DNA of 64,000 nt, from positions 310,001 to 374,000 of the forward strand of contig NZ_RCWF01000001.1 in NCBI RefSeq assembly GCF_003667345.1, read 5' to 3'. The DNA is from Poseidonibacter antarcticus. GTDB lineage: Bacteria; Campylobacterota; Campylobacteria; Campylobacterales; Arcobacteraceae. Both the position numbers and the translations under genes were made by a program. Below, in pieces: positions 385 to 52,053 of the stretch. The notes beneath the pieces were generated by a model, which saw nothing but the letters and a program-made list of their open reading frames with translations, ran no database searches and had not been told where the DNA came from. The stretch's first letter is position 1. Each line of letters opens with the position of its first letter.

Positions 385-984
385 ATGAGATTAAAAAATA
401 TATTCAAGATATTACTATTAATTACTTTTGCAATAACATCAGCAAATGCACTAAAAAAAGACAATTTAAAAGAAGAAATGGGAAATAAAATTAATGCAAT
501 TTTACTCGTTTTAAAAGATAAAAATATACAAAAAGATCAAAAAGGTGAAAAAATTGTTGAGATTATAGATTCCGTATTTGATTATAATACAATGTCAAAA
601 ATTGCCTTAGGTAAAAAAACTTGGAAATCTATTTCAAAAGAAAAAAGAGAAGAGTTTGTAAAAGTATTTGAAAGAAAATTAAAAAATTCATATATTGGTA
701 AACTTGAATTATATACAGACCAGCAGGTAAAAATCATTGAGTTAATAACATATAAAAGAACTAGACTACAATTAGTAACTGAATTATTAGGAGAAGATGA
801 TACTTATGAGATAAACTATAATTTTTACAAGAACAGAAAAACAAATGAATGGTTTATTTATGATGTTGATTTAATAGGTGTTAGTATAATTCAAACATAT
901 AGAAAACAATTTTCTGGTTTACTAAAAGAAAAAACTTTTGATGAAATGTTAGAGACATTAAAAGAAGCAAATGAAAAAAACTAA
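385..984 (+). CDS. mlaC: MlaC-like periplasmic phospholipid-binding protein
   Basis: A 199-residue protein of the MlaC/Ttg2D family, the soluble carrier that shuttles phospholipid between MlaA and an inner-membrane partner. Residues 1-22 form a signal peptide ending ANA. The rest shows the family pattern: an early FDYNTMSKIALGKKTW segment (about 66-81), a REEFVKVFERKL segment, and a late WFIYDVDLIGVSIIQTYRKQF segment. It starts 2 bases after mlaA, and its TAA abuts the ATG of the RND gene. No MlaFED ABC genes are in the window, so the RND protein is the only visible inner-membrane partner. Confidence 0.88.
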   Translation: MRLKNIFKILLLITFAITSANALKKDNLKEEMGNKINAILLVLKDKNIQKDQKGEKIVEIIDSVFDYNTMSKIALGKKTWKSISKEKREEFVKVFERKLKNSYIGKLELYTDQQVKIIELITYKRTRLQLVTELLGEDDTYEINYNFYKNRKTNEWFIYDVDLIGVSIIQTYRKQFSGLLKEKTFDEMLETLKEANEKN

Positions 985-3483
985 ATGATAAAAAAAATAT
1001 ATGATAATATAATCTTAAAATTTCCTATTGCAGTATTACTTGTATTATTTACTAGTATTTCTGTTTTAGGATACTATGCAACAAAACTTGAAATTGATGC
1101 ATCTGCTGAAACATTACTTTTAGATAATGATAAAGATTTAAAATTTTCTCGAGAAGTAAATAAGAGATTTTATAATCCAAATTTTCTAGTTGTAACGTAT
1201 TCACCAAAAAGTGACCTACTCTCAAAAGAAAGCTTAGATGGATTGAAAAAGCTATCAGATGACCTACTAAAAGTGGAAAATATTGAGAGTATTACTTCTA
1301 TTTTAAATGTCCCTTTAGTTCAATCTCCAATTCGTCCAATTGCTGATTTAGTAAAAGGGGTTGAAACTTTAAGTACTAAAAAATATGATTTAGCTTTAGT
1401 AAAAAAAGAGCTTTTAACATCTGAACTTTATTCTAATAATTTAGTAAGTCCTGATTTTAAAACTACTGCTATGATGCTACATCTAAAAAATGACACAAAA
1501 TATTCTGAACTTTTAGATAAAAGAAATAGTTTATTAACTAAAAAAAGAGCAAATACTATTACAAATAAAGAGTTAGTGCTCTTAAATAAAACGATAATTG
1601 AGTTTAAAAATTATAGAGATATAATAAGAAAAAAAGAAGCTAATGAAATTAAGAACATTAGAACAATAATTCATAAATATGATAATCAAAACGCATCTAT
1701 TTTCCTTGGTGGGATAAATATGATAGCAAATGATATTGTAGCTTTTGTACGAAGTGATTTATTAATTTATGGTTCAACATTAGTATTTTTACTTATATTC
1801 ATTTTATGGTATATTTTTAGACATTTAAGATGGATTGTATTACCTCTTGTTATATGTCTTTTATCAGTAGTCTCAACAGCAGGAGTCTTAGGTCTATTTA
1901 ATTGGGAAGTTACTGTAATTTCTTCAAACTTTATAGCCTTACAGCTTATTATTACAATATCTATTGTTCTTCATTTAATTGTGCGATATAGAGAATTAAA
2001 TGTTAAATATAAAAATGCAAATCAGTATAAATTAGTGATAAATACTGTTCTATCTAAAATGAATCCTTCATTTTTTGCAATTATTACTACTATTACAGGT
2101 TTTATATCATTAGTTTTATCAAGCATACAACCTGTCAAAAACTTAGGTTTAATGATGAGTACAGGTATTGCAATTTCTCTTATTATTTCTTTTTTAGTAT
2201 TTCCTATTATTATGATAATGTTAAAGAAAAAAGATGAACATGAGAAAAAAATAAATTCTAGATTCTCATTAATTTCAAAAGCTTCAAATTTAGTTGAACA
2301 TAGAGGAAAATCTATTTTACTAGGTTCTTTAATTGTTATTATATTTTCCCTTTCGGGCGCTTCACAATTATTAGTTGAAAACAGTTTTATTAACTATTTT
2401 AAACAAAGTACTGACATTTATAAAGGAATGAAAGTAATTGATGAAAATTTAGGTGGGACTACACCTTTAGATGTAATTATAAAATTTAAAAATTATGAGG
2501 AAGACATAAAAACTAAAGTTTTAGATGAAAATCTCGAAGATGATGAATTTGATGATTTTGAAGATGAATATCAAGAAAGTGAAAATGATAAACAATATTG
2601 GTTTTCTCAAGATAAAATGAAGACCATTAGCAAAGTTCATAACTATTTAGATTCTTTAGAAGAAGTTGGAAAAGTTCAATCCTTAGCTTCTATTTTAAAA
2701 GTTGGAAAACTTTTAAATAATAACAAAGAATTAGATGGTATTACATTAGCACTTTTATATAAAGAACTTCCAGAACAATATAAAGATTTAATTTTAGCAC
2801 CATATATTAATATTGATTCTAATGAAGCTAGAATTACCATGAGAATAATTGATTCAAATCCTAATTTAAGAAGAAATGAATTAATTAATAAAATAAAAAA
2901 AGATTTACGTGATGTTATAGAAAATAAAGAAACAACATATCAACTATCAAACTTTATGGTTTTATACAACAATATGCTACAGTCATTATTTGATTCTCAA
3001 ATCTCAACATTAGGTTTTGTAATAATTATTCTTTTCATAATGTTTTTAATTTTATTTAGATCTATTAAAATAGCATTAATTGCACTAATTGTAAATGTTA
3101 TTCCTATTTCTTCAATTTTTGGAATTATGGGTTGGTTACATATTCCTTTAGATATTATGACTATTACAATTGCTGCAATTTCTATAGGAATTGGTGTTGA
3201 CGATACAATCCATTATATTCATAGATTTAAAGAAGAATATAAGTTTGATCATAATTATTTAGAAGCAATGAAAAGATCACATAAAAGTATTGGTTATGCT
3301 ATGTATTATACTTCATTAGTAATTATTGTAGGTTTTTCTATATTAGTTTTATCAAATCTAATTCCTACAATTTATTTTGGATTATTAACAGTTGCAGTAA
3401 TGACTATTATTTTAGCTGCTGATTTACTTCTTCTTCCAAGATTAATTATGATATTTAAACCTTTTAATAAAATAAGTAAATAG
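985..3483 (+). CDS. MMPL/RND-family inner-membrane exporter, probable lipid transporter
   Basis: An 832-residue RND-superfamily protein of the MMPL/hopanoid-exporter type. It has TM1 near residues 14-31, a first membrane block around 255-415 and a second from about 670 to 825, each following a large periplasmic domain. The second block carries GIGVDDTIHYIHRF (about 734-747), the paired-Asp proton-relay motif. The matching part of the first block (LQLIITISIVLHLIVRY) lacks it. A strongly acidic stretch lies near 513-540. It abuts mlaC with no gap, which points to phospholipid movement rather than drug export. That role is inference from the operon. The hairpin at 3475-3505 contains its stop codon. 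Confidence 0.85.
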   Translation: MIKKIYDNIILKFPIAVLLVLFTSISVLGYYATKLEIDASAETLLLDNDKDLKFSREVNKRFYNPNFLVVTYSPKSDLLSKESLDGLKKLSDDLLKVENIESITSILNVPLVQSPIRPIADLVKGVETLSTKKYDLALVKKELLTSELYSNNLVSPDFKTTAMMLHLKNDTKYSELLDKRNSLLTKKRANTITNKELVLLNKTIIEFKNYRDIIRKKEANEIKNIRTIIHKYDNQNASIFLGGINMIANDIVAFVRSDLLIYGSTLVFLLIFILWYIFRHLRWIVLPLVICLLSVVSTAGVLGLFNWEVTVISSNFIALQLIITISIVLHLIVRYRELNVKYKNANQYKLVINTVLSKMNPSFFAIITTITGFISLVLSSIQPVKNLGLMMSTGIAISLIISFLVFPIIMIMLKKKDEHEKKINSRFSLISKASNLVEHRGKSILLGSLIVIIFSLSGASQLLVENSFINYFKQSTDIYKGMKVIDENLGGTTPLDVIIKFKNYEEDIKTKVLDENLEDDEFDDFEDEYQESENDKQYWFSQDKMKTISKVHNYLDSLEEVGKVQSLASILKVGKLLNNNKELDGITLALLYKELPEQYKDLILAPYINIDSNEARITMRIIDSNPNLRRNELINKIKKDLRDVIENKETTYQLSNFMVLYNNMLQSLFDSQISTLGFVIIILFIMFLILFRSIKIALIALIVNVIPISSIFGIMGWLHIPLDIMTITIAAISIGIGVDDTIHYIHRFKEEYKFDHNYLEAMKRSHKSIGYAMYYTSLVIIVGFSILVLSNLIPTIYFGLLTVAVMTIILAADLLLLPRLIMIFKPFNKISK

Positions 3484-3505
3484 GATAGAATTCAACCTAT
3501 TTACT
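3475..3505 (+). terminator. Hairpin spanning the RND stop codon
   Basis: A perfect 10-bp inverted repeat, AGTAAATAGG at 3475-3484 and CCTATTTACT at 3496-3505, with an 11-base loop. The TAG stop lies inside the left arm. No strong T-run follows directly, so it may protect the mRNA 3' end or terminate weakly. Confidence 0.5.
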
Positions 3506-3547
3506 AATGGTTAACTTTTTATTTAAAAAAGGTTAATATAAACATTT

Positions 3548-3553
3548 TATAAT
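3548..3553 (+). promoter_or_regulatory. Putative -10 box for a leader or small RNA
   Basis: An exact TATAAT sits in the gap between the RND gene and the next gene. In Campylobacterota the -10 is the main conserved promoter element. Transcription would begin near 3560, run through a small hairpin (TTAGG and CCTAA arms near 3564-3582) and reach the terminator at 3634-3668. Confidence 0.45.
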
Positions 3554-3633
3554 ACTTTTATGAGTTAGGTTACACGGTCCTAATAAATAAAATAATTTTC
3601 GATTTGAATTCTCCTACAAATATACAAGTTAAT

Positions 3634-3668
3634 AAATAGAGTGTCTTCTCCTTTCACTCTATTTTTTT
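3634..3668 (+). terminator. Intrinsic terminator just upstream of the duplicated-domain gene
   Basis: AAATAGAGTG (3634-3643) and CACTCTATTT (3655-3664) form a perfect 10-bp stem with an 11-base loop, followed by a T-rich tail to 3668. It ends only 18 bases before the ATG at 3686. It could end a short RNA that starts near 3560, or act as an attenuator for the gene at 3686. Confidence 0.7.
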
Positions 3669-3685
3669 AAAGGCCATAAAAATTA

Positions 3686-4096
3686 ATGATTAAATTAGAT
3701 TCAACACAAACAAACTTAATTTTAACTAACCTAGATGAAAATGGTGCATTATCATGTGTAAAAGCTTTTAAAGTTGCTAAATTAATTGGGATGAAACCTA
3801 GAGATATTGCACAAATTACTCGTGAAATGAATATAAAAATCACAAATTGTGAACTCGGTGTATTTGGAAATCTTGAATTTACAGAAATAAATGATGAAAT
3901 TTATGATATGTTAAAAATGCGTAATGAAAATCCTAAAATTGAATGTAAAGTTGCATGGAAAATAGCACAAGAAAGAAATCAATCTATTAATAAAATTGGC
4001 TCTACTATTAAAAATTCAGATTTTAAAGTAACAAAATGCCAGATTGGCTGTTTTGAAGATGAAGAAAGTTATGGTTTTGTAAGAGCAAAAGACTAA
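3686..4096 (+). CDS. Unknown protein with two tandem Cys-flanked repeats
   Basis: I do not recognise this 136-residue protein. It contains two copies of a 41-residue unit, residues 21-61 and 84-124, which align without gaps. Ten positions are identical, including Cys24/87, Ala27/90, Ala31/94, Ile41/104, Cys55/118, Gly58/121 and Phe60/123. Each unit has a CxxA-xxx-A helix followed by a hydrophobic core and a TxC-xxG-xF end, which resembles a small helix-turn-helix fold. There is no signal peptide. The ATG has only a distant AAAGG upstream, and a terminator hairpin lies before it. A DNA-binding or metal-sensing role is a guess. Its end overlaps the convergent HAD gene by 4 bases. Confidence 0.7.
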   Translation: MIKLDSTQTNLILTNLDENGALSCVKAFKVAKLIGMKPRDIAQITREMNIKITNCELGVFGNLEFTEINDEIYDMLKMRNENPKIECKVAWKIAQERNQSINKIGSTIKNSDFKVTKCQIGCFEDEESYGFVRAKD

Positions 4097-4722
4097 AGAA
4101 TAGTATTTAACTCTTTTAGACTTTCTATTTTATATTTTGCTTTTGAAAAATTATGAGTTAATGTAAATTCATTTTTAACTACAACACAATCAATTCCTGC
4201 ATTAAATGCTGATGTTAAACCTCGTTGTGAATCTTCAACTACTATTGTTTCCTCTTTTAAGGCTTTAAACCTATTTAAACCAGCTAAATAAGGATCTGGA
4301 TGTGGTTTTGCTCTTTCGTAATCTTCTACACATAAAATAAACTCCATAAACTCTGTAATACCTGTATTTTTATGAATTAATTCAAAATCAACTCTTCTTG
4401 ATGTTGTAATAATTGCCATTTTATAGTTTTGTGATAATTCTTTTAATATTTCTTTTACATTTGGAATTGCAGTATTTCTAGTTTTGATTAATTCTTGGTA
4501 ATAAATATCTCTTTGAAATCTTTTCTTATCTATTACATCTTTTGTGATTCCAGCTTCAATTGCTACTTCCCAAGCAGTTCCACCTCTTGCCATAATTTTC
4601 ATATATCGCTCAAAAGTAAGTGTAATTCCTAACTCTTTTAAAGCTTTTACATTTGCTTCAAAATATAAAGGTTCAGTCTCAACTAGTACACCATCATTGT
4701 CAAATAATATGAATTTTCTCAT
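4093..4722 (-). CDS. HAD-superfamily phosphatase/phosphoglucomutase-like
   Basis: A 209-residue haloacid-dehalogenase hydrolase of the beta-phosphoglucomutase/phosphatase subgroup. Motif I is DNDG with nucleophile Asp8 and acid Asp10, motif II is TTS (106-108), motif III Lys139 lies in AKPHPDP, and motif IV is VVEDS (Glu163-Asp164). A helical cap fills residues 15-85. The substrate cannot be told from sequence; sugar phosphates or phosphoglycolate are typical. Its ATG overlaps the aminotransferase stop by 4 bases (ATGA type), so it is the last gene of the unit thioredoxin, aminotransferase, HAD. Confidence 0.85.
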   Translation of the reverse strand: MRKFILFDNDGVLVETEPLYFEANVKALKELGITLTFERYMKIMARGGTAWEVAIEAGITKDVIDKKRFQRDIYYQELIKTRNTAIPNVKEILKELSQNYKMAIITTSRRVDFELIHKNTGITEFMEFILCVEDYERAKPHPDPYLAGLNRFKALKEETIVVEDSQRGLTSAFNAGIDCVVVKNEFTLTHNFSKAKYKIESLKELNTIL

Positions 4723-5831
4723 TTACTCAAATACTCTTTTAACCTTTTAATACCCTCTTGCATATGTTTTATGTCTCTTGTATATGCAAATCTTATATAT
4801 TGATTGGTTTTATTAGAACCAAAATCAACCCCAGGTGTTGTTGCTACGTGAATATTTTCTAAAAGTTCTTTTGCAAAGGCAAAACTATCATCACTATATT
4901 TTGAAATATTTGCCCAAAGATAAAATGCGCCATCAGGTTTTGCATCAATTTGGAAAATACTACTTAATTCATCATATAAATAATCTCTACGTTCTTTAAA
5001 AGTATTTTTTATCTCGTCTAAGTACTCTTTATCAAAAGCTTCTAAGGCTGCGTATTGAGAAAGTGTTGGTGCTGAAATAAAAATATTTTGAGCAATTTTT
5101 TCAGCTTCTCTTGATAAGTTTTTAGGAACTATAATCCACCCTAACCTCATACCTGGCATACAATAATATTTTGAAAAACCATTTATAACAAAGACATCAT
5201 CACTAAACTCCAAAGCTGTATGTGCATTTTCTTCATATGTTAATCCATGATAAAGCTCATCAGAAATAAAAGATATTTTTTTATTTTTACAATAAGTGAT
5301 TATTTCTTTTAGGTTTTTCTTTGAATATAAGTTCCCTGTAGGATTTGAAGGCGAAGAAATTTGAAGGGCTTGTATATCTTGCTTTTCTAAGTGATTTACA
5401 GTTAATTCATAATTTGTTGATTTATCAATATTCATAAAACAAGGATTTATATCTAGCATATTTGCAAAGTTTTTATAACAAGGATATGAAGGATCACTTA
5501 AACCTAAACTTTGCTTATATTTTAAAGTTAATGTATAAGCTACTAAAAAAGCTCCAGAAGTCCCAGGAGTTAGTAATATTCTCGAAGGTTCAACATCTAC
5601 ATTGTAATTTTCTTTATACATTATAGATATTTTATTTCTAAGCTCTAATAAACCTAAACTTTCTGTATATGAAAATTTATCATTTTCTACTGCTTTTTGA
5701 AGTGCCTTTTTAACCTTTGGACTTGGATTTAAATCTGGTTGACCTATTTCAAAATGTATTGTATCTTCATACTTTTGTGCTTCTCGCACAATGTCCATTA
5801 CAATAAATGAACTAATGTTTTCATATCTCAA
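4719..5831 (-). CDS. PLP-dependent aminotransferase, class I/II
   Basis: A 370-residue fold-type I aminotransferase of the aspartate aminotransferase family. The PLP lysine is Lys221 in GFSKYYCMPGMRLGW. Asn163 in SNPTG and Asp191 with Tyr194 in DELYHG are the usual cofactor contacts, and the carboxylate-binding Arg lies near 356 (YIRFAYTRD). The length is normal. Substrate specificity cannot be assigned; relatives act on aspartate, aromatic amino acids or alanine. It starts 2 bases after the thioredoxin-like lipoprotein stop and overlaps the HAD gene downstream. Confidence 0.88.
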   Translation of the reverse strand: MRYENISSFIVMDIVREAQKYEDTIHFEIGQPDLNPSPKVKKALQKAVENDKFSYTESLGLLELRNKISIMYKENYNVDVEPSRILLTPGTSGAFLVAYTLTLKYKQSLGLSDPSYPCYKNFANMLDINPCFMNIDKSTNYELTVNHLEKQDIQALQISSPSNPTGNLYSKKNLKEIITYCKNKKISFISDELYHGLTYEENAHTALEFSDDVFVINGFSKYYCMPGMRLGWIIVPKNLSREAEKIAQNIFISAPTLSQYAALEAFDKEYLDEIKNTFKERRDYLYDELSSIFQIDAKPDGAFYLWANISKYSDDSFAFAKELLENIHVATTPGVDFGSNKTNQYIRFAYTRDIKHMQEGIKRLKEYLSK

Positions 5832-5833
5832 AT

Positions 5834-6421
5834 TTATTTCTTTCCTATTGCTATATCAATATATTTTTCATACTCTTCTACATCAGATTCACCTATGAAT
5901 TTTTTAATAAAAGTTCCATCTTTTGAATATAAAAATAACTCAGGAATTTTTTGAACATTACCTAATTCTTTTGCTAATTCAAAATTTTCTTCACCAAGTG
6001 TAATAGGATAAGTAATTGAATGTTTTTTTATAAATTCCAATACTTCAGATTTAGGTTTATCTTCCTCTTTTTCAAACAATACTGAAACAATTTCAAAATC
6101 ATCTTTATATTTCTCTCTTACTTCTTTTAAAACTGGAAGACCTTTAATACAAGGTGGACACCAAGTTGCAAACACATCAACTAAAACTGCTTTTTTACCT
6201 TTAAAATCTTTAAAATCTAAGCCATTTTTTGTAGTTGTAAGTTCAATAGTTTTACCATCTGTAGTAGTTAATTTAAATGTTTTAGCTTTAAATTCTTCAA
6301 TTATTGGATTATTATTTTCAGTATTTGCGATTAAACTTTCATCAATTTCTGATTTAGAATCACATCCTGTAAATAAAAAAAGTGATGTAATTAAAGTAGC
6401 AAAAAAATATTTTGTATTCAT
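5834..6421 (-). CDS. TlpA/ResA-like thioredoxin lipoprotein
   Basis: A 195-residue membrane-anchored thiol-disulfide protein. The N-terminus has a lipoprotein signal with lipobox LFTGC (Cys20). The thioredoxin domain spans about 48-190, with the catalytic motif WCPPC at Cys88 and Cys91 and a cis-proline region IPELF. WCPPC and the short alpha/beta insertion place it with TlpA/ResA reductases, which keep periplasmic cysteines reduced, for example in cytochrome c maturation. The partner is not visible here. First gene of a three-gene minus-strand unit. Confidence 0.87.
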   Translation of the reverse strand: MNTKYFFATLITSLFLFTGCDSKSEIDESLIANTENNNPIIEEFKAKTFKLTTTDGKTIELTTTKNGLDFKDFKGKKAVLVDVFATWCPPCIKGLPVLKEVREKYKDDFEIVSVLFEKEEDKPKSEVLEFIKKHSITYPITLGEENFELAKELGNVQKIPELFLYSKDGTFIKKFIGESDVEEYEKYIDIAIGKK

Positions 6422-6468
6422 GTTTATCCTATTATGTTTAGTTTTATTATTTGAGATTATAGTAAATA

Positions 6469-6500
6469 TAAGTTAATAAATCATAAATGATATTAACTTA
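6469..6500 (-). terminator. Hairpin at the stop of the small membrane protein gene
   Basis: TAAGTTAATA at 6469-6478 and TATTAACTTA at 6491-6500 form a perfect 10-bp stem around a 12-base loop. The stop codon of the gene at 6493-6786 lies within one arm. This is probable 3' end formation, and the T-run after it is weak. Confidence 0.45.
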
Positions 6501-6786
6501 AACTTGAGAGCTCTTTTAAAAGTTTTGTAGCTTCTTCTTTTTCAAAAAATAAATTCATTGATAAGTCTTGATTTATTTTTTTTAGAAGTTTAATCTTTTC
6601 TCTTGTTTGTGTCTTTTTATCATTTTCATACTTTTTTAAAAGTACTTTCATTTCATTTCTATATGACTGTATTAATTCCTCTTTTTTTACAGTAGGAGGT
6701 TTAATATTCTTTTTTTTATTAAAATTAATAAATAAAAAAATACCAAAAAATACTATGAATATTAAAATAAGTGTTAGTGTGTCCAT
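6493..6786 (-). CDS. Small membrane-anchored coiled-coil protein, unknown
   Basis: A 97-residue protein that I do not recognise. Residues 4-22 form one hydrophobic membrane segment (TLILIFIVFFGIFLFINF). It is followed by a lysine-rich stretch and a charged, probably coiled-coil helix (about 35-95). The likely topology is N-terminus in the membrane and C-terminal helix in the cytoplasm, by the positive-inside rule. It lies just downstream of a larger unknown of similar design (6828-8009), with a hairpin between them, so the two may be co-transcribed. Confidence 0.6.
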   Translation of the reverse strand: MDTLTLILIFIVFFGIFLFINFNKKKNIKPPTVKKEELIQSYRNEMKVLLKKYENDKKTQTREKIKLLKKINQDLSMNLFFEKEEATKLLKELSSLS

Positions 6787-6803
6787 TAAATTATCTTTTT
6801 TAC

Positions 6804-6825
6804 ATAAGGTGTATTAACACCTTAT
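6804..6825. terminator. Intergenic hairpin between two unknown membrane-anchored genes
   Basis: ATAAGGTGT (6804-6812) and ACACCTTAT (6817-6825) form a perfect 9-bp stem with loop ATTA. It lies 3 bases past the stop of the 6828-8009 gene. The T-rich flank is on the plus-strand side, so for the minus-strand genes it looks more like a processing or stability hairpin than a strong terminator. Confidence 0.45.
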
Positions 6826-6827
6826 AT

Positions 6828-8009
6828 TTATTTTTGTTTTGCTAATTCTTTAGCTTCTAGTGCAATTTCTTCTGCACGTTTTGCAGTTTCAAGTGCTTCT
6901 GTAATAATTGAATTTGTTTCTTCATCTTTTTCTAATCGCTCAATTCGCTCAAGAACACTTCTATAACTAATATGTCCTATTGCATTAAGAACTCTTGGTG
7001 ATTTAATAACATAATTAATAAGCTTTAAATTTCTCCAATTATCTGTAATTATACAGTTAATATGCTCTGAATAATCAGATGATATTTTTGTTTCATTTGC
7101 AACAAATGCTAAATCTAAATCAATATCTTCCGTTTTTGCAAAATATGCATAATATAAATCTTGTAAATATATAGCTGATTTAAGATTAGTAATATAATCA
7201 TAAACTCTTTGTTTTTCATCATTTTTTAACATATAAGATAGAATCACATTTGAAATTCTATTTTCTTGACTTGATAATGCTTGATTTAATTTTTCATTAC
7301 AGTTTTTATATACTTGAAGTGATTTATCCTCATCTAAAGCTCTTGTAAATTTGAATAAATCTAAATTATAAGAATAAGAAAATCTATTAATTTCTTTAAT
7401 TAAAGGATTTAAAATTACTTCTGGTTCATTTCTAGTATTTGCATAAGAAACAATACTATTTACAAATTCAACATCATTTTCATTAAAATTTGTATTTTTA
7501 CTATATTCATTGATTTCAAAAGCTAGATTATCATCTAATAAAGTTTTAGATTTCTCATCATAAAAAGATGTTAATTCATTCATTTTATATTTTTTAGAGT
7601 TTTTTGCAATAAGTGCATATTGAGAAGAAATTTGTCTATATTTATTGATTTTATCTTTGATATCAAAATCTTTTAAAAGATTTAATTCTCTTTGTAATAA
7701 ATCATTTTTTTGAGAATTAATACTATTTGCTAATTTTAGACCTCTTTTAGGTAATTCTGTTGCTAATTTTGTTAATTTCGTGTCATATTCATCAAAATCA
7801 TTTAAGTTTTGTATATTTGATACTAATTTTACAGCTGAAGATATTTTTATTGATCTTCTTATAAAAAACACAATCATTAGTACAATTACTAATACTACTA
7901 AAATTGTAGCATATACACCATTTGGATCTTGAGCATAAATTTGTGCAATATCAAAATTTACCTGTTTTGCTAAGGCAAAAAACTCACTAATTTTTTCTAG
8001 AAATGACAT
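6828..8009 (-). CDS. Membrane-anchored helical protein, unknown
   Basis: A 393-residue protein that I do not recognise. It has a short N-terminal segment, one membrane helix at about residues 33-50, and a basic RRS turn that suggests the large remainder is cytoplasmic. Residues 55-340 look all-helical, without Cys motifs or a nucleotide-binding signature. The last 40 residues are Glu/Lys/Ala-rich and probably coiled coil. It is followed by a 97-residue anchored protein. A structural or scaffold role is possible but unsupported. Confidence 0.65.
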   Translation of the reverse strand: MSFLEKISEFFALAKQVNFDIAQIYAQDPNGVYATILVVLVIVLMIVFFIRRSIKISSAVKLVSNIQNLNDFDEYDTKLTKLATELPKRGLKLANSINSQKNDLLQRELNLLKDFDIKDKINKYRQISSQYALIAKNSKKYKMNELTSFYDEKSKTLLDDNLAFEINEYSKNTNFNENDVEFVNSIVSYANTRNEPEVILNPLIKEINRFSYSYNLDLFKFTRALDEDKSLQVYKNCNEKLNQALSSQENRISNVILSYMLKNDEKQRVYDYITNLKSAIYLQDLYYAYFAKTEDIDLDLAFVANETKISSDYSEHINCIITDNWRNLKLINYVIKSPRVLNAIGHISYRSVLERIERLEKDEETNSIITEALETAKRAEEIALEAKELAKQK

Positions 8010-45827: not shown

Positions 45828-47201
45828 ATGTATAAGTTATACTTATCATTATTCATAATTTCATCAGCTTATTCACAAACTATAGATTTTAATGAAGTTT
45901 TAGACCTTACTCTTAAAAATAGTAAAGATTTAAAAAATCAAAAATTAGATATAGATTTATCTAAGCTAGATATAAATAAAGTAGACTCAGTCTCATATGG
46001 GAAATTGTCATTTGAAGAACAAATAAATAGAACAAATCACGCAGGATATGTTTTTAATTCAAAACTATCTTCAAGAGAAGCAACTTTTAATGATTTTGGA
46101 GCAGCACAATATACAGGAGCAAATAGTTTATATATTCAACCAGAAAATCTAAACTATCCAAAAGATAGAAATAATTTTGATACTAAATTAAATTATGATA
46201 TACCCCTCTTTACTGGATTTGAATTAACAAATCAAAAAGATGTATTAAAACTTAAAAAAAAAGTATATGAATTAAAATACAATCTAAATAAAGATCAATT
46301 ATCATACGAAGTTTTAAAAGCATATAATGCAGCAGTTGTTGCAAAAGAGTTTATACAAGCAGCAAAAAAAGCAAAAGAGTCTATTATTTATGTAAAAAAA
46401 ACTGCAAATGCCTTTCATAAAGAAGGTTTAGTTACAAAAATAGATGTAAAGCAAGCAAAAGTTTATGAATCAAATGTAAATTCTAAGCATATTGATGCAC
46501 AAAATAAATTTGACTCGGCCTTGGCATATCTGAAATTTCTAACATCAAATGATAAAATTACAGATGTAAAAGAACTAAAATATATAAAACTAAAAAGCTT
46601 AGACTTTAATACTTTATATAAAAATGCATTAATAAATAAAAATAGTTTAAAAATGCAAAGTTTAAATAAAAAAATCACAAAAAAGAATATTGATATTGCA
46701 AACTCCAAATATTACCCAACAGTTTATTCTCATTTAGAATATGGATTTAATGATAATAAACTAAGCTTATCTGATGATAAGGATTATTACAATGCAATGA
46801 TTGGTTTAAAATATACACTTTTTGATAATACAAGAAATATAGACAAACAAAAAAGTCAAATCCAATATCAACAATCTTCTTTAAACTATGAAAAATTAAA
46901 AGATTTTACTAAACTTGAATTAAAAAAAGCACTATTAGAATTAAAATCAAAAGAGAAAATATTAAAAGAAAAAAAAGAAGCTCTTAATTTATCAAATGAA
47001 ATTTATAAACAATCGCAACTAATGTATAAAAATCACCTAATTGCTATGACTAATTTATTAGATCAAGAAGCAAAATTAAGAAATAGCCAAGCAGAATTAA
47101 TTTTAGCTAAATATGAAAAATCTTTAGTACTTGCTAATATAACTTTGATAGCTGGAGATTCTTTTATACAAAATAGCACTAACACAAAGGAAACAAAATG
47201 A
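45828..47201 (+). CDS. TolC-family outer-membrane efflux protein
   Basis: A 457-residue outer-membrane factor. The signal peptide is 1-16 (ending AYSQ). Two long, helical TolC repeats follow, the first with FNEVLDLTLKNSKDLKNQKL, the second with a Lys-rich coiled coil. It forms the trimeric exit duct of a tripartite pump. It overlaps the adaptor gene by 4 bases (ATGA), and the two RND halves follow, so all components are in one operon. The export substrate is unknown. Confidence 0.9.
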   Translation: MYKLYLSLFIISSAYSQTIDFNEVLDLTLKNSKDLKNQKLDIDLSKLDINKVDSVSYGKLSFEEQINRTNHAGYVFNSKLSSREATFNDFGAAQYTGANSLYIQPENLNYPKDRNNFDTKLNYDIPLFTGFELTNQKDVLKLKKKVYELKYNLNKDQLSYEVLKAYNAAVVAKEFIQAAKKAKESIIYVKKTANAFHKEGLVTKIDVKQAKVYESNVNSKHIDAQNKFDSALAYLKFLTSNDKITDVKELKYIKLKSLDFNTLYKNALINKNSLKMQSLNKKITKKNIDIANSKYYPTVYSHLEYGFNDNKLSLSDDKDYYNAMIGLKYTLFDNTRNIDKQKSQIQYQQSSLNYEKLKDFTKLELKKALLELKSKEKILKEKKEALNLSNEIYKQSQLMYKNHLIAMTNLLDQEAKLRNSQAELILAKYEKSLVLANITLIAGDSFIQNSTNTKETK

Positions 47202-47956
47202 TAAAAACTTTACTATTAATTTGTATTACATCAATTTATATTTTTGCAAATGATATTGAATTATCAGGTTCTGTAATTTCAGATAATGAAAAAGTAATTA
47301 CAAGTAGAAATATGGGCTTTATAAAAGATGTTTATGTAAGTGAAGGTTCTTTTGTAAAGAAAGGTCAAATACTTTATGAAATTGATTCTTCAAGCATTGA
47401 TTCACAAAAACAAGAAGCAATCTTAAATACAAAAATGCTAGAAAATCAATTAAGTAATATACAAATAAATTATAATAGATTCAAGCGTTTATACAAACAA
47501 GATTTAGTTCCTAAATATGATCTTGAACAATTAGAATTAAATCTTATAAATACAAAAAATATGATTTCAATTGCAAAAGCAAAATTAAAAGAGGTTAATT
47601 TTCAATATAACTATTTAAAAATAAAAGCACCAAATGATGGGCTTATTATAAAAAAATCTATAAAAGCAGGAGAAATGGCAATGCCAAGTTCACCAGCTCT
47701 TATTCTTACTGATCTTTCAAGTTTAAAAATAAAAACAGATATTTCTGAAAGTAATTTAAATAAAATAGAAATAAACCAAGAAGTTAATGTATTAATTCCT
47801 TCAATCAATTTAAAAACAATAGGAAAAATTGAAGCAATTATTCCAAATATAAATGCAGTTACTCACTCTTTTATTTTAAAAATTTCATTTGATAAGAAAG
47901 ATTCTAGAGTTTATCCTGGTATGTATTCCAAATTACTTATCAAACCTTTAAATTAG
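47198..47956 (+). CDS. RND efflux adaptor (membrane-fusion protein)
   Basis: A 252-residue periplasmic adaptor. The signal peptide is about 1-17 (ending IFAN). The lipoyl half-motif GFIKDVYVSEGSFVKKGQILYEID (about 40-63), a short coiled-coil hairpin, the second lipoyl half (LKIKAPNDGLIIKKSIKAGEM) and a beta-barrel domain follow. The C-terminal membrane-proximal domain is reduced, and the protein is short for the family (usually 330-400 residues). It links the TolC-like duct to the RND pump. Confidence 0.88.
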   Translation: MIKTLLLICITSIYIFANDIELSGSVISDNEKVITSRNMGFIKDVYVSEGSFVKKGQILYEIDSSSIDSQKQEAILNTKMLENQLSNIQINYNRFKRLYKQDLVPKYDLEQLELNLINTKNMISIAKAKLKEVNFQYNYLKIKAPNDGLIIKKSIKAGEMAMPSSPALILTDLSSLKIKTDISESNLNKIEINQEVNVLIPSINLKTIGKIEAIIPNINAVTHSFILKISFDKKDSRVYPGMYSKLLIKPLN

Positions 47957-47964
47957 GCATAAAA

Positions 47965-49536
47965 ATGGAAAACATAGATAATAAAAATTTAAATATAGCA
48001 GGAAAATTATCTCTTGCATTTATAAATCACCCTTTAACACTTATCTTTGGCGTATTTATTTTAATCTTAGGTTATATCTCATTAGTATTTATGCCAAGAG
48101 AAGAAAATCCACAAATAAAAGTAAGTGGTGGTGCTGTTATTGTTGCACTTCCAGGTGCAACTCCTAGTGAGATACAAAAAGTAATTATTGAACCATTAGA
48201 GAAGAAAATAAAAGAGATAAAAGGTGTTGAACATATTTACTCATTTGCTAAAGATTCAGTAGGAATTGTTCAAGCACAATATTATATAGGTGAGGATAAA
48301 GAAGAATCAAATCTAAAACTTTACGATCAAGTTATGAGAAATATGGATTTAATGCCAAAAGGAGCAATGCCTCCTATTATAAAAACAATGGATATTGATA
48401 CGGATATTCCTATTGCAACAATTGCATTTTATTCTATGAAAAAAGATGGGAAAGATTTAATATCTCAAACACAATTATATAAAGAAGTAAATAAAATCAC
48501 ACGGCAAATAAATAAAATTGATAATGTTGCTTTAGTTGATTTAAAAGGTGAGAAAAAAGAACAATACAATATTTTAATAGACCCAAATAAAATATCTGCT
48601 TATAATCTCTCACTAGCACAAGTTATGAAACAAGTACAATCACTATCTTTAAAAATTCCTGATATACAAGGAAATACAAAAGATAAAAGTTTAGTAGTTT
48701 TTGGAATAAAAGAAGCAATTGAAAATACAAAAGATATAGAAAATATTATTGTTTCATACAATAATAATGTTGCAATTTATTTAAAAGATATAGCAAAAGT
48801 CCAAAGATCTTTCGATATTCAAAATAATAAAGAAGCTTTTCTTTATAAAAAAAATGAAGCTGGAAATTATGAAGAAATAAATCAATTAACGATGAGTGTA
48901 TCTAAATTAAAAGGTTCAAACTCTGTAAGTATAAATGAAAAAATATTTGAATATATGGATTCACAAAAAGAAAACTTAATAAAAAAAGATATTGCTTTTC
49001 TTATTACAAGAGATGATGGATATACTGCAAATGAAGCTGTAAATTCACTTGTTCAAAATTTACTTATTTCAATAGTAATTATTGCCATACTTCTTATTTT
49101 TACTTTAGGATTCAAAGAAGCAATGATTGTTTCTCTTGCTGTTCCTATGATTTTATCGCTTACACTATTTTGTGGTTTTTTATTAAATGAAACAATAAAT
49201 AGAATTACACTTTTTGCACTTTTAGTATCTCTAGGAATGCTAGTTGATGCAGCAATTATTGTAATTGAAAATATACATAGACATAGAAAAGAAAACAAAG
49301 ATATAGATATTACAATAGTTTCTATAAATGCTACAAATGAAATAGGAAATGCTACAAATATAGCAACACTAGCTATTATTATGACTTTTATGCCAATGTT
49401 TTTTGTTGGTGGAATGATGGGTCAATTTATGCACCCTCTTCCAGTTTTTGTATCAATATCACTTGTAATGTCGCTTTTTATTGCCTATGCTTTTACACCA
49501 TATTTAATCAAAAAAATTTATAAGGCTAAAAAATGA
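47965..49536 (+). CDS. RND efflux pump, N-terminal half
   Basis: A 523-residue protein that equals the first half of an AcrB/CusA-type pump. TM1 at about 22-42, porter subdomains (PN1/PN2) at 45-345, and TMs 2-6 from about 355 to 515. The proton-relay region is SLGMLVDAAIIVIEN, with one Asp and an Ala where AcrB has a second Asp, as in CusA-type pumps. The protein ends just after TM6 with a basic tail. The second half is the next gene, overlapping by 4 bases (ATGA). Confidence 0.9.
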   Translation: MENIDNKNLNIAGKLSLAFINHPLTLIFGVFILILGYISLVFMPREENPQIKVSGGAVIVALPGATPSEIQKVIIEPLEKKIKEIKGVEHIYSFAKDSVGIVQAQYYIGEDKEESNLKLYDQVMRNMDLMPKGAMPPIIKTMDIDTDIPIATIAFYSMKKDGKDLISQTQLYKEVNKITRQINKIDNVALVDLKGEKKEQYNILIDPNKISAYNLSLAQVMKQVQSLSLKIPDIQGNTKDKSLVVFGIKEAIENTKDIENIIVSYNNNVAIYLKDIAKVQRSFDIQNNKEAFLYKKNEAGNYEEINQLTMSVSKLKGSNSVSINEKIFEYMDSQKENLIKKDIAFLITRDDGYTANEAVNSLVQNLLISIVIIAILLIFTLGFKEAMIVSLAVPMILSLTLFCGFLLNETINRITLFALLVSLGMLVDAAIIVIENIHRHRKENKDIDITIVSINATNEIGNATNIATLAIIMTFMPMFFVGGMMGQFMHPLPVFVSISLVMSLFIAYAFTPYLIKKIYKAKK

Positions 49537-51191
49537 AATTAGAAAAGTTTATTTATAATATTCTACAAAGTCGTTCTAAATCACTTTTGGTTTATTTAAT
49601 TGCATTAGTTTTATTTATTTTAAGTATTGCTATGTTTCCTACTGAAATTATTAAAGCAAAAATGCTTCCTAGTAAAGACTCAAATACTTTTTCTGTTTAT
49701 GTAGATTTAAAAGATGGTTCAAGTAAAGTTCAAACAAAAGAAGTTACAAGATGTATTTCAAAAAATCTTCAAAAAAATGAACTAGTAACAAATATTTCAG
49801 TATTTATAGGTGAAGGTCAACCATTAGATTTTGCAGCATTAGTTAAACAAAGTGCATTAAAAGATAAACAATCACAAGCAGAAATAATGGTAAATATTAA
49901 AAAAGCCCAAGAACGTGATATTACAAGTTACAATCTAATAAGTAATATAAGAGAAAATATTCAAAAAAACTGTTCTTTATATGATGCAAATATTAAATTT
50001 ATAGAACTACCAGCTGGTCCTCCTGTACTTGCATCAATTGTTGCAGAAATATATGGAGGAGAAACTTTTGAAAGTAGAAGGGAGTTTTCAAAGAAAATTG
50101 CAAAAATATTAAAAGATCAAAGTACATTAGTTGATATTGATATTATGGCAGACAAGGATTATATAAAATACCAATTAGAATTAGATAATAATAAAATTAT
50201 AAAAAGTGGTGTTAGTCTAGAGCAAATAAAAAATATACTTTATTTAGCCTATGAAGGTATGGAAGTTTCAGTAGTAAATGAAAACAATGCTGAAAACCAA
50301 ATTCCTATATTTTTAAGACTTGATGATTCAAGATTATTAGAAGACTCAAGTAAAGAAAGCTTAGAAAACAAACTTCAAAATTTAAAAGTAGTAAATAATC
50401 AAGGATTAATGATAAATATAGCTTCATTTATAACAATTAAAGAAGTAATAAAAGAGCCAACACTAACTTCAAAAAATTTAAAAATGATGATAAATGTTAT
50501 TGCAGAAACTGACAAAGATAGTCAGATATATCCTTTACTTGATGCAAGAAAGCAAATGTTTGATGAGTTAAGTAATGATTATAAAATTTCTAAAACAAAT
50601 ATGTTAAACCTATCATTTATAGATAAAAATACAAATGAAAAATTTGATTTGATTTTTGATGGAGAATTAAAAGTAACAATTGATACTTTTATTGATTTAG
50701 GTGGTGCATTTATTATTGCACTAGTGTTAATATTCTTTTTAATGGTAATGTATTATAAAAGTTTTGCACTATCAGGAGGAATTGTTCTTTCAAGTTTTAT
50801 ATCAATAGTAGGAGTTATTTTTGCTCATGTTATTATGGATATGATGACTAATGATACTTTTTATTTAACAGCCACTTCTTTAATTGGATTTATTGGATTA
50901 ATTGGAATAAATTCTAGAAATTCAACTTTGATTATAGACTTCTCAAAACAATTAGTTATAGAAAAAAACTTAAGTATAAACCAAGCAATTGCAAAAGCTA
51001 CTGCAACACGTTCTAAGCCAATTATACTAACAGTTCTAACAATGGTTTTTGCTTCTTCATTACTTGCTACTGATGCAGTATTTGGTGGATTAGGGGTTGC
51101 TTTAATTGGAGGAACATTGATTTCATATATTGTATCAATGTTCTTTGTTCCTGTGATTATAAAAAATCAATTACATAAGATATTAAATTAA
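49533..51191 (+). CDS. RND efflux pump, C-terminal half
   Basis: A 552-residue protein equal to the second half of the RND pump. TM7 at about 17-36, porter region (PC1/PC2) to about 385, and TMs 8-12 from about 390 to 545. GLIGINSRNSTLIIDFSKQL has Arg where AcrB has Lys940. It starts inside the stop of the N-terminal half. Two separate polypeptides must assemble into the usual 12-helix protomer. The overlap and intact sequence on both sides argue that the split is a genuine arrangement and not a frameshift. Confidence 0.9.
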   Translation: MKLEKFIYNILQSRSKSLLVYLIALVLFILSIAMFPTEIIKAKMLPSKDSNTFSVYVDLKDGSSKVQTKEVTRCISKNLQKNELVTNISVFIGEGQPLDFAALVKQSALKDKQSQAEIMVNIKKAQERDITSYNLISNIRENIQKNCSLYDANIKFIELPAGPPVLASIVAEIYGGETFESRREFSKKIAKILKDQSTLVDIDIMADKDYIKYQLELDNNKIIKSGVSLEQIKNILYLAYEGMEVSVVNENNAENQIPIFLRLDDSRLLEDSSKESLENKLQNLKVVNNQGLMINIASFITIKEVIKEPTLTSKNLKMMINVIAETDKDSQIYPLLDARKQMFDELSNDYKISKTNMLNLSFIDKNTNEKFDLIFDGELKVTIDTFIDLGGAFIIALVLIFFLMVMYYKSFALSGGIVLSSFISIVGVIFAHVIMDMMTNDTFYLTATSLIGFIGLIGINSRNSTLIIDFSKQLVIEKNLSINQAIAKATATRSKPIILTVLTMVFASSLLATDAVFGGLGVALIGGTLISYIVSMFFVPVIIKNQLHKILN

Positions 51192-51225
51192 TTTTAAAGT
51201 AGATAATTTAATATCTACTTTAAAA
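51192..51225. terminator. Bidirectional terminator after the RND operon
   Basis: TTTTAAAGTAGATA (51192-51205) and TATCTACTTTAAAA (51212-51225) form a perfect 14-bp stem with loop ATTTAA. It starts right after the RND stop and contains the stop of the convergent Sel1 gene at 51220. Confidence 0.8.
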
Positions 51226-52053
51226 ACCTTCATTTTTTAAAGTTTTATAACGATTACAAGCTTTTTCATATCCATAATCGCAAGCCTTTTTATATAAATT
51301 CTTAGCCATAGTTTTATTTTTAGAAACACTTCTTCCTTGATAATAAGATAAACCAAGATTCATGCAACTATTAGCAATACCACCATCACAAGCAATTTTG
51401 TATAACCTATTAGCATTGTTATAACTTTTTGAAACCCCTAAACCTTTTGAATATAGTAAAGCTAAATTATGACAACTTAATGAAACGCCTGCCTTACAAG
51501 ATTTTTCATAAAGAATTCTAGCTTTTACATAATCTTGTTTAGTACCTCGCCCATTTTTATACATTACACCCAAATTCATACAAGATTCAGCTATACCATT
51601 ATCACATGCTTTTGTATATAGATTAAGTGCTTTAAGATAATCTTTATTTACACCATCACCTTTTTCAAATAAATATGCAGCATTATGACAACTTCTGTAA
51701 ACCTTAGCATCACATGCTTTGGAATATAGTTGGGTAGCTTTTTTATTATCTTTTTTTACACCATGACCTTTTGAATAAAGTAAAGCAAGATTATAACAAC
51801 TATTGTAAACATTAGCATCACATGCCTTTTTATATAAATTTACTGCTTTTGCATAATTTTGATTAACACCTTTCCCTTCTTGATATAAAAGAGCTAATTT
51901 ATAACAAGCTACATATTTATTGTTATCACATGCTATTTTATATAATCTTTTAGCTTCTTTATAATTTTGCTTAAGATATTCATCATTTCCTTTAGTTAAA
52001 TTACTTGCTTGTAAAGTAAAAAGTAAAAGTAAACTTAGTATTATTATTTTCAT
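51220..52053 (-). CDS. Secreted Sel1-repeat (Hcp-like) cysteine-rich protein
   Basis: A 277-residue protein with a signal peptide (1-16) and about seven tandem 36-residue Sel1-like repeats. Most contain a Cys pair eight residues apart (for example ACDANVYNSC, ACDAKVYRSC, ACDNGIAESC), as in Helicobacter cysteine-rich (Hcp) proteins, where each repeat is locked by a disulfide. It is probably periplasmic. Related proteins bind peptidoglycan fragments or partner proteins. It stands alone and has a bidirectional terminator at its end. The role is unknown. Confidence 0.88.
   Translation of the reverse strand: MKIIILSLLLLFTLQASNLTKGNDEYLKQNYKEAKRLYKIACDNNKYVACYKLALLYQEGKGVNQNYAKAVNLYKKACDANVYNSCYNLALLYSKGHGVKKDNKKATQLYSKACDAKVYRSCHNAAYLFEKGDGVNKDYLKALNLYTKACDNGIAESCMNLGVMYKNGRGTKQDYVKARILYEKSCKAGVSLSCHNLALLYSKGLGVSKSYNNANRLYKIACDGGIANSCMNLGLSYYQGRSVSKNKTMAKNLYKKACDYGYEKACNRYKTLKNEGF

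Follow-up and report, generated by a model that had tools for sequence, protein, structure and literature searches.

Tripartite RND pumps have been studied as single-chain trimers, and an RND permease is normally a single polypeptide with 12 transmembrane (TM) helices. In Poseidonibacter antarcticus, a permease encoded beside an adaptor and an outer membrane channel departs from this plan, in that two ORFs each encode one half. Do the two products still build one pump, and is the division an old or a derived trait?

The permease genes and their operon

The two genes lie on the forward strand of the window, the whole 64,000-nucleotide stretch of DNA analyzed here, in the following arrangement:

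45828..47201, + strand: TolC-family outer membrane channel, 457 aa, first gene of the operon (ORF; Pfam OEP, 137.9 bits)
47198..47956, + strand: short periplasmic adaptor (membrane fusion protein), 252 aa (ORF; Pfam HlyD_D23, 94 bits)
47965..49536, + strand: RND permease N-half subunit, TM1-TM6 and first periplasmic loop, 523 aa (Pfam ACR_tran; separate ORF conserved)
49533..49536, + strand: ATGA stop/start overlap of the two permease genes (sequence; junction survey)
49533..51191, + strand: RND permease C-half subunit, TM7-TM12 and second periplasmic loop, 552 aa (Pfam ACR_tran; separate ORF conserved)

With HlyD_D23 and OEP proteins encoded in the operon, both partners expected of a tripartite RND system are present, and the adaptor also scored 130.8 bits against NCBIfam RND_mfp (cut-off 94.9). 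The TolC stop and the adaptor start share an ATGA overlap at 47198, 8 nt separate the adaptor from the N-half gene, and a Shine-Dalgarno-like AAGG is found inside the N-half gene, shortly 5' of the overlap with the C-half gene. Promoter-like sites were fewer than in shuffled sequences (38 versus a mean of 48.5), and the same scan found no terminator-like site. Facing the operon is a 277-aa ORF with repeated motifs, presumably Sel1-type repeats (51220-52053, - strand), and an 832-aa ORF at 985-3483 of the window, with a weak ACR_tran match (27.5 bits, cut-off 28), may be a different RND-superfamily exporter.

Both permease ORFs matched Pfam ACR_tran (PF00873, cut-off 28), the N-half with 247.7 bits over positions 5-487 of the 1021-position profile and the C-half with 135.9 bits over positions 519-1016. 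In a crude hydropathy analysis, the final hydrophobic segment of the N-half (523 residues) spans 488-515 and the first such segment in the C-half spans 13-42, so the cut falls within the cytoplasmic TM6-TM7 linker. The first-pass annotation had described two intact halves of 523 and 552 residues, parted after TM6 and overlapping by ATGA, with a short adaptor and a TolC protein in the same operon, and it was right on each of these points. Among solved structures, the N-half is closest in sequence to CmeB (124 bits) and the C-half to MexK (69.5 bits), and the best 60 structure chains for each half were all ~1020-1070 residues long. The same genome encodes seven full-length RND permeases, each in one open frame, and splitting of RND permeases is thus not a general habit of this organism.

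Distribution and conservation of the split

That the same split might occur elsewhere in the Arcobacteraceae had been raised when the locus was first described, and it is in fact common there. Among 104 genomes of the family, the N-half was matched in 87, the C-half in 87 and both in 85, with two genomes matching N alone and two C alone, some of them through fragments; each half was matched in 15 of the 20 genera. Relatives in the genome collection include records of Poseidonibacter ostreae, P. lekithochrous, Aliarcobacter and Halarcobacter. The split extends well beyond the family. Across the 298 genomes of the order, the C-half was matched in 213 (E<=1e-25) and the N-half in 207 (E<=1e-70), totals that include split and fused members as well as fragments. 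Among the matches listed (down to E 3.6e-159), the C frame always measured 551-676 aa, corresponding to a stand-alone C subunit. When 18 order genomes, mostly with weaker matches, were searched singly, 14 proved to have a fused permease, two a split one and two only contig-end fragments; the fused frames span both halves (1012-1238 aa), and no second match was found in these 14 genomes at E<=1e-20.

Split loci came from 14 family codes of the order (f1, f4-f9, f11, f14, f16, f18, f20, f22 and f23) and fused loci from f12, f15, f17, f20, f21 and f23, while f13 had no match among the listed genomes and f10 had one listed genome with a match (G525). Named split pairs outside the Arcobacteraceae are plasmid-borne in Sulfuricurvum kujiense and Sulfurovum mangrovi, and the annotation of both plasmids labels each half as an efflux RND transporter permease subunit. 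Outside the phylum the search covered plasmid records, and the five that were opened each held a single CDS. Each of the 73 split loci retrieved around matches (L113-L185) has its N and C genes next to each other. On one contig (G305:C73:12263-22699), the split pair occurs twice, with identical scores and a spacing of ~7.2 kb, as if recently duplicated. Purifying selection acts on both halves, with dN/dS values of ~0.10-0.14 in seven comparisons per half (for the C-half, 500 codons were covered in five of the seven). This selection, together with the joint presence of N and C in 85 of the 104 family genomes, confirms that the split is conserved beyond chance.

The gene order TolC-adaptor-N-C was found in 52 of 72 split loci, the others being adaptor-N-C (5), TolC-N-C (6) and N-C alone (9); contig ends cut a few loci in this count, from which one of the 73 (L121, an N fragment only) was omitted. 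As some loci lack an adjacent adaptor and/or TolC gene, the tripartite operon is not universal. In six loci (L118, L119, L132, L154, L155 and L162) TolC directly precedes the N-half, with no adaptor found between them, and a TetR-type regulator gene lies before TolC in L118 and L154 and before N in L145, which has N and C only. Among 12 fused loci of the order, 10 carry TolC and adaptor genes upstream of the permease. The adaptor frame has a median of 266 aa in split loci L113-L185 (one cut by a contig end) and is mostly ~345 aa in fused loci L190-L201; as the adaptor is shorter in the former, the fission may have been accompanied by a change in adaptor docking. A divergent extra split pair (L120 of genome G047, 868-7212) has ABC-2 transporter and LpxR genes on its upstream side and, downstream, a gene for a patatin-like phospholipase, and a patatin gene is also found near the fused Polaromonas pump. 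The idea of a lipid substrate, taken from these two neighborhoods, found no support among the window features tested.

The proton relay

A VDAA motif at the proton-relay site of the N-half and an Arg at the AcrB Lys940 position of the C-half had been read from the sequence at the outset, and alignment to E. coli AcrB bears out both, the former at AcrB positions 407/408. The AcrB Asp407 position is Asp, and the Lys940 position Arg, in 52/52 split and 13/13 fused rows; the equivalents of Arg971 and Thr978 are likewise invariant in both sets. The set typical of RND relays (Asp407, Arg971 and Thr978) is thus complete, and in place of the AcrB-type Asp408 and Lys940 the window has Ala and Arg. The Asp408 position varies, with A 43, D 7, T 1 and S 1 in the split rows, and S 7, D 5 and G 1 in the fused rows, where Asp is replaced in 8 of 13. 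MexK, aligned to the C-half, also has Arg at the 940 position. We considered the unusual relay residues as a mark of the split, and rejected this because the fused relatives share Arg940; judged by the alignment, VDAA with Arg940 is a subfamily version of the relay and is not tied to the split. The Asp407 equivalent is located on the N subunit and those of Arg940, Arg971 and Thr978 on the C subunit, so that in split members the relay would be distributed over two chains.

Probable assembly of the two subunits

The region where the chain is cut has changed little in length. Counted from the FTP motif in TM6 to the MLP motif that follows TM7, the two chains of the window together have 54 residues, compared with 67-70 in nine of ten measurable fused rows (17 tried) and 57 or 68, depending on the motif taken, in the tenth (L197). 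The linker loss in the window is thus ~13-16 residues relative to fused relatives. Split N tails extend 7 to 36 residues past FTP (47 of 52 measurable), and other split members may therefore have lost less. Five orthologues have their halves in frame, and the read-through chain of one of them (L086) was folded using 23 aligned rows, giving a model of modest quality with a pLDDT of 66.5 (51-56 for the other four models) and a pTM of 0.45. The best Foldseek match of the L086 model was CmeB (TM-score 0.63, rmsd 11.0), whereas a second aligner ranked AdeB first (Z 37.2, rmsd 5.6, 855 of 1020 residues), with AcrB close behind; the AdeB alignment covers model residues 19-1078, across both halves. 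Since both halves were joined in one chain, which favors pairing, the fold demonstrates compatibility with an AcrB protomer rather than independent association.

Taken together, the data very probably reflect a two-subunit permease that arose by a single fission, in which N and C rebuild an AcrB-like protomer within a tripartite exporter. A gene fission in the TM6-TM7 cytoplasmic linker would have left TM1-6 of a 12-helix pump on an N subunit and TM7-12 on a C subunit, the two being encoded in one message with the TolC and adaptor genes. The C subunit would be produced by coupled re-initiation at the stop of the N gene, and near-equal amounts of the two would then be expected. One N and one C subunit would pair through their helix bundles into an AcrB-like protomer, three N and three C subunits would most likely give an AcrB-like trimer, and the three N/C pairs with adaptor and TolC would constitute the pump. 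Protons would flow via a relay between the subunits, comprising Asp407 on N and Arg940, Arg971 and Thr978 on C (AcrB numbering). The data establish the split itself, its conservation, the operon, the junction pattern, a single fission on the trees and the conserved residues; from these we infer the heteromeric assembly with considerable strength, whereas the stoichiometry, the proton coupling and the export function are proposals of the model.

Separate genes would also permit the halves to act as half transporters, with no joint protomer, each forming oligomers of its own or only one of them being active. Such behavior is unlikely, given that the relay positions on both subunits are invariant throughout the split rows, that no split locus fetched has its two genes apart, that the two halves are under similar constraint and that the window linker is shortened by so little. 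About equally improbable, as an addition to the two-subunit permease, is that fission made the pump modular, such that N and C subunits of different pairs exchange into mixed protomers or trimers with new substrate ranges. Matches to two or three split pairs do occur in single genomes (G047, G308, G143 and G332), and we know of no tripartite RND exporter with combinatorial half-pump use.

Translation across the junction

Loci with N and C frames on the same strand and at most 400 nt apart (158 in total) yielded 107 distinct junctions, a sample skewed to the Arcobacteraceae. The C start was picked by its nearness to the aligned start, a rule of thumb that may err in single cases, and lies at distances from -38 to +12 nt, counted from where the N stop codon ends, most commonly at -4 (33), -1 (22), +8 (15) and +9 (13). 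The chosen starts are ATG in 99 junctions, GTG in 7 and TTG in 1, and an SD-like motif (GGA, AAGG and similar) lies 5' of the start in 101/107, compared with 16% of 15-mers drawn at random from these loci. The N stop codons are TGA (41), TAA (41) and TAG (25), and relative to N the C gene is in frame 2, 0 or 1 in 75, 18 and 14 junctions, respectively, all three relative frames also being found outside the Arcobacteraceae. Coupled translation of C after N is the simple reading that fits this pattern.

A fused product of frameshifting had been named in the first-pass annotation as one way in which the split could prove illusory. Programmed frameshifting or stop readthrough might indeed be suspected where, as in most loci, the C start is at or a few bases from the N stop, and in the window an A-rich run precedes that stop. 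The survey makes a joined protein very unlikely: given three frames and three stop codons, no single recoding event would serve the whole clade, and nearly all junctions combine their own start codon, mostly ATG, with an SD-like site. Separate synthesis of two subunits by coupled translation is consistent with all of these features.

Origin of the split

RND pumps have two homologous halves, and the division could in principle be either a later fission or a relic of the half-pump that existed before duplication and fusion, the two options put forward when the locus was first described. Profile models were built from the split N and split C subunits and scored on fused pumps. The N profile matched the N halves of the fused subfamily at 397-655 bits (in L192 in two pieces, 335 + 312) and the C profile the C halves at 334-553 bits, whereas either profile scored below 5 bits on the wrong half. 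Against 11 classical pumps (AcrB, CusA, MdtB, MdtC and the seven of the same genome), the N profile scored 109-203 bits and the C profile 8-84 bits in ten, with no match to L002.

The phylogeny of the halves against full-length pumps gave the same picture. In a quick tree of concatenated halves (76 rows), all 52 split rows formed one clade (SH-aLRT 100), whose sister group was the 12 fused Campylobacterales rows, and Polaromonas fell outside; the 52 rows also formed one clade in each of the N-only and C-only trees. A careful mixture-model tree (47 rows), which included 23 of the 52 split rows and omitted the fused L191, L193, L197 and L200 (all present in the quick tree), again united the split rows (23/23, support 100/100) and left the fused rows outside. 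Flammeovirga and Pseudanabaena were outermost in that tree, followed by Polaromonas, Sphingopyxis and Roseibium, and then the fused Campylobacterales, whose clade had support of 99 in the quick and 92/91 in the mixture-model tree. The trees hold 12 of the 14 fused loci, those of G218 (L103) and G278 (L110) being in none, and contain long branches, notably L003, L004 and L120, of which the quick tree gave warning.

Because the split rows form one clade inside an otherwise fused subfamily, the parsimonious reading of the trees is one derived fission within the Campylobacterales, with no re-fusion among the rows examined. An ancestral half-pump is exceedingly improbable; beyond the general homology of the two halves it can claim a weak match (14.8 bits) between the N-half and the C part of CmeB, but each subunit scores hundreds of bits with the corresponding half of fused relatives and only background with the opposite half, and the fused subfamily members fall outside the split clade in the trees made. 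Later fission, on the other hand, is strongly supported by the sequence comparisons. Finally, although one indel could yield an ATGA-like break in a single genome, a sequencing or assembly error, including the sequencing indel that the first-pass annotation had considered, can be excluded along with a recent pseudogene, since errors would not recur with such a variety of junctions, in so many genera of the family and on the Sulfuricurvum and Sulfurovum plasmids, with purifying selection on both halves.

Novelty and significance

A catalogue of efflux systems in A. butzleri has reportedly been given by Isidro et al. in 2020. No description of a split RND efflux permease was found among the titles and abstract openings listed, a range that leaves most subscription papers and all preprints outside its scope, and the portions consulted of PMC8277102, PMC8300790, PMC7365950, PMC10624747, PMC7767855, PMC13276354, PMC3826837 and PMC3464245 do not describe one. 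Two-protein transporters of the RND superfamily are known already in SecD/SecF, and both halves are listed as genes by annotation pipelines; what we have not found described, and regard as new, is the permease of a tripartite exporter split at its midpoint and kept in this form across much of an order. The case is a clear one of membrane-protein fission, a process described as rare in PMC3464245. The natural split pump is a ready-made system for asking whether each half folds alone, how a relay works across two chains and what purpose the TM6-TM7 linker serves. As each half is annotated as a permease subunit on the two plasmids, there is a risk that RND pumps are overcounted in these bacteria and that a knock-out removes only half a pump.

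Comparison with known systems

Separate RND ORFs have an older report in NolGHI of rhizobia. The secD and secF genes are also separate in E. coli, and their products serve protein translocation and are not known to use TolC or an adaptor. The N-half does not qualify as SecF, scoring 22.2 bits against TIGR00966 (NCBIfam), for which the cut-off is 160, and its weak match to Pfam SecD_SecF_C (29.8 bits) is far below its ACR_tran score. The likeness lies in the architecture, SecD/SecF being presented in PMC8277102 as an RND-superfamily transporter with a heterodimeric 2 x 6 TM setup. MdtB and MdtC resemble the split pair in that two different permease genes lie side by side, but each of them encodes a full-length permease (1040 and 1025 aa) and not a half. 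The products of these two genes form one pump.

CusA-type heavy-metal pumps share the single Asp in a VDAA motif (E. coli CusA), but they are one chain with Glu at the 940 position and form a separate clade; CusA grouped with L002 of the same genome in the mixture-model tree, and the split pump does not qualify as an HME pump. The AcrB/CmeB-type HAE pumps have in common with it the ACR_tran fold, Asp407, Arg971, Thr978 and a tripartite system, and differ in being one chain, in belonging to a separate clade and, for AcrB, in having Asp408 and Lys940; in the same tree, AcrB grouped with L001, also of this genome, outside the subfamily of the split pump. That subfamily includes the fused permeases of Campylobacterales (L190-L201), Polaromonas (WP_011797839.1), Flammeovirga (WP_144077170.1), Pseudanabaena (WP_126391410.1), Sphingopyxis (WP_040110218.1) and Roseibium (WP_228933478.1). 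These are united with the split pump by the tree, by Asp407, Arg940, Arg971 and Thr978 in all 13 examined and, in 10 of the 12 Campylobacterales loci, by the order TolC-adaptor-permease. They are distinguished from it by a single polypeptide, of 1060-1119 aa in the five named CDS, the frames of the 12 loci measuring 1076-1238 aa from stop to stop.
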